Shown here: positions 58,801-61,800 of the stretch, in pieces
Numbering within the stretch: position 1 is the stretch's first letter
How the letters are laid out: each line of letters begins with the position of its first letter
NCBI GenBank assembly: GCA_964017235.1
Contig: OZ024936.1
Location: forward strand, 34,246,040-34,310,039
Direction of reading: 5' to 3'
DNA from: Sabellastarte sp. h YS-2021
Lineage: Eukaryota > Annelida > Polychaeta > Sabellida > Sabellidae
Length of the DNA: 64,000 nt
Notes under the pieces: generated by a model
Told to the model about the DNA's origin: nothing
The model's input: the letters and a program-made list of their open reading frames with translations, nothing else
Databases searched by the model: none
Translations under genes and position numbers: made by a program

Positions 58801-61800
58801 GGGTCCTCAGGATCTCTCTGTAAACAAGTGAGAACACTAATATTTAACCAGAAACTCTGTATTATTATTAAACGTCTCCTACGGATTTGAATACTTAATC
58901 CTACTTAGCAAAGTGCTACTAGAACCTTATTAAACTGCACCATTCATCAAAAATTTCTTTCAAAGAAAGCTATCTCTCTAAAAAAAAACTGTTAATGGAA
59001 TAACTTAAATTTGCATCAAAAACCAACAAGTAAATTTCTACAATAAAAAAAAAAAATTCTTTTTCTTCTTTATTTATTTGTCTCTTTCTCAAGATTCTCT
59101 GTGAAATATTGTGGTTTTCCCAAATTCTCAGAACTTTTCAAAAGTAGCTTCTACACAGATATTTATTTACTCCCACAAATCTTCATGCTTTTTGTGTGGG
59201 CTTTGTTAACTTGAGCTTGGTAACAAGTTGGTAAGAATGGAAGTGTGAAAATAATATTTATTTACATCATTTTAAATACACTGTGAAAGTTCTATCATTT
59301 TATCATTGTGGCTAGGCGAGGGATGGACACACTACATGCTATCTGGTCAAGATTCTGCACTGTAAACCCCCAGGGCAGTGGTAAGCAACTGCCAACCTTT
59401 CAGCCTACAGTTGCTGCAATTAGTTGAACCTACCATCTCAAAGGGTGTATCTAAGTACTTGTATCTGCTTCTAATCTGATGGGTTGAGTGACACCTGTTA
59501 GCTTCATTTTATCAGTTACTAAAATATTTTCTGTGACTTGTTGAAATTAGTTCTTTACCTGGAAGCTTTTCCTTGGCTGTGAGAGGTTGTCATGGAGTCG
59601 CCTGCGTATGTCGGCAGCGGCAATGTAGACAGGTTCTTTTGAGTCAGTGCTTGCTGTGCTCTCCAGTGACATCTGTGACATGGTGTCTGGGTGGTGACGT
59701 GAACGTAAGGTGAGCTCGTACTGCTGAACATACAGATACATATATATGTCAAAGTATGCAAAAATGTGACATGAGAGATGATAAGCTGGTACTGCTGTAA
59801 ACAGACACACAGTATCAATCATAATATGGATTATTTCACATGGTGAATTGATGGTGACATGAATGAAGTACTAGCTCACACTGCTGCAAATAATCAGACA
59901 GGATCACATGACACATAATGCCATGTGACGTACAGGTGGTGACTGGAATGTAGCTTAAGCTGGTATTGCTGTAAATAACCACAGTACTGATCACATACAT
60001 TTTGTCCCATGGTGTACAGGTCGTGACCTGAATGTAACATAAGTTCATACTACTGTGAATGTACATGCAAAGTCAAAGTTGGGGTTTTAAGTCCCTTTCA
60101 ACAGCCAGGGTCATATTGGCACAGGTCTTCAGCATTACCACTTGACTGCACACAGAGGTGACTGCCTGTGATTAGATGCCAAACTTACTAACCACTAGGC
60201 CACCGAGGACCTCTACTGAATGTACATGCAGTGTAATGTGACAGAGTAAGGATGCCGACTGACCTACAAGATGTCACTGCGTTTCTGTGACCAGTATACT
60301 GACCTGCATGGTGTCACTGACAGTCTTCCTGTGACTAGTGTACTGTCCTGCATTATGTCACTGTTTTCCTGTGACCAGGGTACTGACCTGCATAATGTTG
60401 TCTTTCTAGGACCAGTGTACTGACCAGCATCATGTCACTATCTTCCTGTGACCAGTGTACTGACCTGCATGATGTCATCGTCTTCCTGTGACCAGCACTC
60501 TGCGTCATCCACATACTCATTGCTTCCATACACACTGAACTCAGGTTTGGGTGAGCCCTCAGAACTAGACTGGTACTGGAGCAAATCCTCCTCAGACCGT
60601 GTGTACCTGAGAACAAAAACACAGGTTTCAAGATGTCTGCATATGAGTGGTGAGAGCTGATAGTAAACAGAAACCATCCATCTGACATAACACAAAGGAC
60701 AGCCTGCAGGCTTGTATTAATGGCAAGCAAAAACCACTCACAGGGCCAAAATATAAACTACCAGTGTTCTTTCTACCTTACCCAGGTAGCTTCAAAATTG
60801 CACATCAACCATATGATGATGAGATAAAATACATATTTATTTGAAAGAGTTTAAAGAAAGAAAGTCATACTCCAAACATACTAATGAATAATAACTATGT
60901 AATATGGATGGGTCGGTGTCAGTGAAATGTAGATTATGTGGCTACCAAAGCAAAACCATTCTGATTTCCGGATGTAAAAATAAATATGTTTTAGTACATC
61001 CTCAACTGAATAGGACTACGTGAAGTGAAACTCATGAAACCAAAAATGGTTCTACTCAATGAAATCACTGTATAAGTCTGCAAATGCACAAAAATATAGG
61101 ATATTGTTTACTATTTCTTCGGATTGAGGATTTATGTCTACTTTTTAAATTTTCCCTCAATTATACAATTGAGATGGCAACTGTAAAGTGTGGTCACATT
61201 ATTTCGGTAAAATGCTCCCAGTAATGAAATACCAGGCCCAGTGACCCATCCCCACACTCTAACTCATCTAAGTAGAGCATGTATGTGGCTTTCCCACCAG
61301 AATACATTTGATGAACTATCTATTTATCTCACCTGAGGGTGTTTTCCATCAGTTTGGAGGGTACAGGAGCAGCCAGTGCATTCTCACACTCTAACACCTC
61401 TATGTAGAGCATGTATGGGGCTTTCTCCTTGGAGTTGAGGACTACTGCCTGGGTATGAGGGATCCTCACCACATGGTGGTTTATGGCTCCTTGTATTGGC
61501 ACCCACACACGAGCCGGTAGATTCAGATTCAGCATGGACAGCTCTGCCAGTAAACGAGCGGCTGAAAACACAAGAAATACACAACATTCTTATTTTACTC
61601 AAAGTTATGAGACACTCTTGTGAGGGATACATGGGTGGGTAAATGCAAGCCAAGCAATGGCAGTTTTACAAGGTGCGGAGCTAAACATAGAAAGTTACAT
61701 TTCTCAGGAAAGTTGAAACGTTATCATGACACAAAGTGGCATCACACTACGATCATATTTTCAGGATTTTACTTCCACTCTTTCTCTAAATCTTCCCTCT

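Follow-up and report, generated by a model that had tools for sequence, protein, structure and literature searches.

How does an intron come to carry, at each of its ends, a row of copies of the splice junction that bounds it, and do such copies serve splicing or are they the residue of growth? The question is raised by an intron of PI4KB, whose exons lie on the minus strand at about 48.4-62.3 kb of the 64-kb stretch of DNA analysed here (the window). Features of the intron and its two exons are likewise given on the minus strand, in window coordinates, with a slash marking the exon-intron junction.

A 166-residue peptide joined from three exons matched PI4KB chains in the PDB (best E 4.6e-31) over residues 99-166, which correspond to the kinase-side exon. 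Two more exons matched the PF00454 profile, with E values of 2e-05 and 2.4e-04, both under the curated cut-off, and the genome search with PF00454 gave a match above the cut-off inside the window (G000:C14:34294477-34294635). The peptide anchors in the window follow what we take to be the order in human PI4KB. The upstream linker exon alone, with six intron codons added, matched no PI4KB chain in the PDB; it is assigned to PI4KB because of its neighbouring exons and its open frame. This exon (60465-60606, YTRSEED...) is open up to the donor, and the downstream linker exon (59559-59723, ...RKSFQ) has 55 codons followed by GTAAAG. The intron between them was correctly recognized in the sequence-only reading but was given there as 744 bp (59721-60464); it measures 741 nt (59724-60464).

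Other repeats are present in the window. Two copies of about 3 kb (27182-30344 and 35357-38499) lie about 8.15 kb apart, with matched pieces 77-94% identical, and long tandem arrays with units of 133-155 nt (and 321 nt) occupy 49660-51453, 51777-52258, 52415-53516, 54266-55542, 62542-63354 and 63601-64000, that at 62542-63354 being upstream of the PI4KB exon near 62.1-62.25 kb.

Junction-spanning arrays at both ends of the intron

The donor side consists of six donor-junction units in tandem, the real site included, which are 37-44 nt long (40, 40, 37, 40, 44 and 40 nt in order) and each comprise about 31 nt of exon edge followed by GTCAGTACA. The real donor junction lies in unit D1 (60456-60495; 31 nt of exon, CAG/GTCAGT at 60464). 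It is followed by D2 (60416-60455; CTG/GTCAGT at 60424), identical to D1 at 35 of 40 positions, by D3 (60379-60415; CAG/GTCAGT at 60387), by D4 (60339-60378), which reads CAG/GACAGT at 60347 and has lost the GT, by D5 (60295-60338; CAG/GTCAGT at 60303), and by the innermost decoy D6 (60255-60294; TAG/GTCAGT at 60263), identical to D1 at 30 of 40 positions. D3 and D5 carry the 9-mer of the real donor. Pairwise identity among the six is 72-88% over 37-40 aligned nt; D6, the unit at the array end, is the most diverged (72-75% in its pairs versus 78-88% in the others), and no homogenised pair stands out. TRF independently reported an array at 60258-60495 with a period of 40 and 5.9 copies. Comparing the upstream exon edge with the first 240 nt of the intron gave a best local score of 46, a value reached by none of 1000 dinucleotide-preserving shuffles (mean 17.1, maximum 30), the control used in each comparison of this kind. 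Four of the five decoy donors (D2, D4, D5 and D6) have AGTGAC where the live exon (60465-60495) has GATGAC; a Ser-to-Asp codon change in the exon may postdate the duplications, or an early copy may have mutated before it was amplified.

On the acceptor side there are five junction units, again counting the real site, at spacings of 71, 89, 85 and 84 nt. Each contains the intron end, the AG and some tens of nucleotides of exon start, and their exon-like parts begin at 59723, 59794, 59883, 59968 and 60052. The real acceptor junction, GTTCAG/CAGTACGAGCTC, falls in A1 (59666-59753, where 59666 is a cut picked for alignment), with the intron ending at 59724 and the exon starting at 59723. The decoys are A2 (59754-59824; TTTACAG/CAGTACCAGCTTATC...), A3 (59825-59913; TTTGCAG/CAGTGTGAGCTAGTAC...), A4 (59914-59998; TTTACAG/CAATACCAGCTTAAGC...) and the outermost, A5, with its exon-like copy (59999-60055; CACAG/TAGTATGAACTTATG...). 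The downstream exon edge scored 46 against the last 400 nt of the intron, with no shuffle among 1000 as high (mean 18.6, maximum 34). This array was detected as direct-repeat families and was not reported by TRF at a score of 40. D3 and A2 are overlooked by ungapped scans, at 60% and 57% respectively, because of indels. The six donor and five acceptor copies proposed from the sequence alone are thus borne out, with the real sites included in both counts. The accompanying claim that nearly all copies keep their GT or AG stands for four of five decoy donors and four of four decoy acceptors, D4 with its GA being the exception, and the claim that spacings are never multiples of three fails for the acceptor spacing of 84.

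The sequence-only reading had also placed a SINE between the arrays, and one was located at 60070-60216, flanked by a 14-nt target-site duplication whose copies, first at 60217-60230 and second at 60056-60069, are the only two occurrences of TGCATGTACATTCA in the 64-kb window. The insertion has many genomic relatives: a search with 60072-60216 gave 40 scored matches, itself included, among 4266 candidates, the 39 others being 88-89% identical. By contrast, each of the two arrays had one match, its own place, in a genome search at E up to 10 that passes over very common words, and so no dispersed source was found for them. An introner-like or transposon-borne intron is not supported, since this search gave no related array copies elsewhere and the inserted SINE is the only repeated part.

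That the arrays are an artefact of assembly is extremely unlikely. Assembling tandem repeats is difficult, and an amphioxus array of a similar kind was apparently misassembled in a draft genome (PMC3087553), but the donor units differ from each other by 12-28% and the acceptor units by more, which makes the units distinct, and a SINE with its target-site duplication sits between the two arrays.

Removal of the SINE and one target-site copy leaves an intron of 580 nt. The donor units account for 201 nt of it and the acceptor units for 329 nt, so that 530 of the 580 nt are junction copies; the other 50 nt form a GT...AG stretch. This 50-nt core starts at the innermost donor copy and ends at the outermost acceptor copy; its first 47 nt are at 60217-60263 and its last three (CAG) at 60053-60055, across the SINE. 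Given that the sequence past the last tandem copy should be the old continuation of the intron, the core would represent, barring deletion, the intron as it was before both arrays. It is apparently the original mini-intron, its ancestral length being judged from this arrangement, and a later deletion could have shortened it.

With high probability, then, this intron is a double-ended mirage, a term introduced for boundary-spanning minisatellites: ordinary tandem duplication, acting locally at each of its two edges, would have extended an ancestral intron of about 50 nt. Two minisatellite-like arrays would have formed from segments spanning the exon-intron boundary, presumably duplicated through slippage or unequal exchange. 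Because such a unit carries the exon edge together with the splice signal, a new copy would leave the exon and its junction intact beside it. As long as the exon-proximal site stays in use, all inner copies would be intronic and probably nearly neutral, drifting into fossils of the former exon edge and splice sites, and the SINE would have been inserted between the arrays later. A common origin of the two arrays was not supported by comparing the donor with the acceptor unit consensus (score 18; shuffle mean 19.8, 724 of 1000 at or above) or the donor with the acceptor array (score 36; shuffle mean 27.7, 65 of 1000 at or above). Because both ends of one intron are affected, a local hotspot may have given rise to the arrays, which would then not be two independent events.

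The intron does contain tandem duplicates of coding sequence, as it should if it had been gained where a coding segment bearing an AGGT proto-splice site was duplicated in tandem. However, an intron gained in this way should resemble the beginning of the downstream exon in its 5' part and the last portion of the upstream exon in its 3' part, and these crossed comparisons scored at chance (14 versus a mean of 16.6, and 18 versus a mean of 19.2). We give this origin next to no credence.

Splice-site choice and the status of the decoys

Among the 30 possible donor-acceptor pairs, the PI4KB frame is kept by D1-A1 alone. All distal donors lead to a stop nine codons on, and D1 runs into stops when joined to A3-A5 and shifts frame when joined to A2; the prediction that use of a distal site would alter or truncate the protein therefore agrees with all 29 other pairs, each of which gives a frameshift or a stop. 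As the sole frame-keeping pair, D1 and A1 are most likely the working sites, so that, judged by the reading frame, the outermost site at each end would be the one in use. Simple measures of strength do not favour these outer sites: the 9-mer of the real donor recurs in D3 and D5, and the real acceptor has 10 pyrimidines in the 17 positions ahead of its AG, compared with 9-12 of 17 in the decoy acceptors. Given that the identical 9-mer stands at 60464, 60387 and 60303 and that the frame needs only the one at 60464, donor choice would depend on more than the 9-mer, making the PI4KB intron a natural splicing experiment.

The same features could be taken to mean that the decoys are functional, competing with the real sites so that some transcripts end up in frameshifted or truncated forms prone to decay and PI4KB output is thereby tuned. 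GT is retained in four of five and AG in four of four decoys, two decoy donors carry the real 9-mer, the pyrimidine counts of the decoy acceptors bracket that of the real one, the 29 alternative pairs all frameshift or stop, and boundary repeats in human genes are reported to be able to yield alternative splicing (PMC2812944). However, mean column conservation in the decoy units is 0.90 on the donor side and 0.81 on the acceptor side, and retention of the dinucleotides fits these values (P 0.76 for four of five GT, P 0.19 for four of four AG). Comparing the splice dinucleotides with the mean unit position, in samples that are small, thus gave no sign of selection keeping the decoys. Similar arrays also occur in unrelated kinesin and myosin introns, and amphioxus mirages are reported to leave regular splicing undisturbed (PMC3087553).

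One further observation bears on function. In the decoy acceptors, conservation is higher in the exon-like than in the intronic parts, with ungapped means over A2-A5 of 0.53 for the 34 exon-derived nt versus 0.46 for the 27 intron-derived nt. In the pairs among A3-A5, with A2 omitted for its indel, the values are 0.65, 0.68 and 0.71 for the exon-derived versus 0.41, 0.56 and 0.26 for the intron-derived part. This contrast is not what clean duplication of whole units and subsequent neutral drift would lead one to expect, and it counts against them, although it could come from indels in the intronic parts, which ungapped counts penalise. On balance we regard a function of the decoys as unlikely.

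Exon edges elsewhere in the genome

The control set comprised 60 exon loci, the 30 best kinesin and the 30 best myosin among 204 listed matches (126 kinesin, 78 myosin). Junction-spanning tandem arrays were found at 4 of 120 control edges (95% interval 0.9-8.3%), a frequency from a small and non-random sample in which exon ends are profile-match ends rather than annotated junctions. They are at the donor edges of L010 (12.8 units of 35 nt), L029 (4.9 units of 26 nt) and L061 (32 units of 42 nt over 1.3 kb) and at the acceptor edge of L069 (9.8 units of 43 nt), the least clean; one of the four is doubtful. In the three donor-edge cases the repeat appears to include about 14-17 nt of exon, and in L069 the tight 43-nt unit covers about 8 nt at the exon start, similarity being looser deeper in the exon. 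The L029 intron, of roughly 170 nt, appears to consist largely of donor-junction copies, and its array has one genomic match. Units of L061, like D4, have lost donor dinucleotides (GGCGAG, AGATGA). L016 was not counted, since its array stops at the junction and exon sequence in the unit is not demonstrable; L043, L053 and L057, though among the edge windows touched by arrays, show no apparent junction span and were not counted either.

Would duplication then be aimed at junctions? A mechanism that favours splice junctions as such, for example RNA-templated or spliceosome-linked copying, might be suspected from the arrays at both ends of the same intron and from junction-spanning arrays in five genes in total. 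Since the copies contain intron sequence, spliced RNA is excluded as the template. Moreover, tandem arrays touch exon-edge windows less often (8 of 120) than flanking windows (210 of 1380, some of which may contain other exons), and exon centres less often still (1 of 60). The background is high, with 20860 of the 172860 flanking bases inside tandem arrays. Fisher tests against the flanks gave P 0.0097 for edges and P 0.0012 for centres, values that are overstated because neighbouring windows share arrays. Edges are therefore hit less than flanks and more than exon centres, which speaks for general duplication filtered by selection and against junction-aimed copying. Local copies likewise occur at no more exon edges (13 of 120 at z of at least 5, four of them the counted tandem arrays) than pseudo-exons in the same loci (17 of 120) or window segments (16 of 92), and stronger copies (z of at least 10) at 5 of 120, 15 of 120 and 10 of 92, respectively. 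A junction-specific mechanism is thus very unlikely, and the gradient is consistent with tandem duplication of a general kind, tolerated wherever the splice sites next to the exon remain in use.

Other edge matches were of different kinds. L045 (both edges) and L028 have partial, non-tandem exon-edge copies hundreds of nucleotides off in flanking introns, at 74-82% identity in self-BLAST. The partial distant copy at L013 is weakly supported, self-BLAST giving only a 28-nt match, and that at L008, also hundreds of nucleotides away, is poorly supported; L008, L022, L004 and L047 had no self-BLAST match at E 1e-3. The L043 edge match was discarded as a low-complexity TCAA run. Within the same genome, G000:C14:20123497-20142816 holds a tandem series of similar exon blocks: nine matches to myosin-head exons, regularly spaced at about 2.35 kb, with near-identical profile ranges and one TAG each.

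The sequence-only reading had left two explanations of the PI4KB intron side by side and did not use the name mirage. Growth at the edges by local duplication agrees with the tandem arrays, their single genomic place, the 50-nt core and the control edges, and the alternative, splicing decoys, found no support. If the two ends of an intron are independent, 3.3% squared gives about 0.1% of introns arrayed at both ends, so that a double-ended case in a large genome is unsurprising. Whether a measurable share of introns here grow outward from their junctions by tandem duplication, with mirages a recurrent route of lengthening in minisatellite-active animals rather than a peculiarity of amphioxus, appears to us evenly balanced. 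If so, introns would hold fossils of former exon edges and splice sites, and double-ended nested cases like that of PI4KB would preserve the ancestral mini-intron at their core. With the usual number of introns in an animal genome, the 3.3% of this small sample would, if it holds, mean thousands of affected introns, and in so many cases decayed copies compared with live exons could reveal past exon change and the signals that splicing needs.

Relation to known boundary repeats

Several kinds of tandem duplication at or within introns have been described. Human introns made of tandem repeats were reportedly described by Zhuo and colleagues in 2007, and intron gain by tandem genomic duplication at an AGGT proto-splice site is said to have occurred in potato RdRp. 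Gain of this type is also reported in Drosophila (PMC2891723). As in the PI4KB case, local duplication of coding sequence supplies intron sequence; by contrast, in PI4KB an existing intron was probably lengthened, copies of each exon edge lie on their own side, and crossed similarity is absent. In an earthworm metallothionein gene minisatellite repeats are reported inside an intron, the available part of the report not stating whether they span a junction (PMC12783039). Internal tandem repeats also occur at the exon-intron boundaries of human genes that lie in segmental duplications, with 27 intron modifications reported; these are like the PI4KB arrays in location and can produce new or alternative introns, but unlike them are recent, variable in number and affect transcripts, and the available part of that study describes no intron with both junctions arrayed (PMC2812944).

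The closest relatives are the boundary-spanning minisatellites named mirages in amphioxus Adh3 and also reported in amphioxus globin genes, where copy number differs among haplotypes (PMC3087553). Either boundary may be affected, AG or GT is present in many but not all units, and units range from 10-72 bp in Adh3 to 150-160 bp in globin genes (PMC3087553, PMC3902484); imperfect 60- and 108-bp versions are reported in PGBD5 (PMC3902484). Tandem units over the exon edge and splice signal are common to these and the PI4KB intron, in which the unit spans the boundary at both ends and many but not all decoys keep their AG or GT. Anatomically, both ends of the PI4KB intron qualify as mirages. In the open-access literature searched, the word in this sense appeared in amphioxus papers only, with none for bivalves or other molluscs, and no report of a double-ended nested mirage was found, which is no proof of absence. 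The present genome, at 1.79 Gb, is far above amphioxus genomes in size. Boundary repeats as a kind are known; new here is that they occupy the two ends of a single intron and nest about a ghost core. Whereas intron lengthening is usually ascribed to transposons, growth of the PI4KB intron would be recorded in duplicates of its edges, as far back as a tiny core. Compared with the amphioxus mirages, both boundaries are arrayed around 50 nt, and the copies are old and diverged, the inserted SINE giving their relative age.
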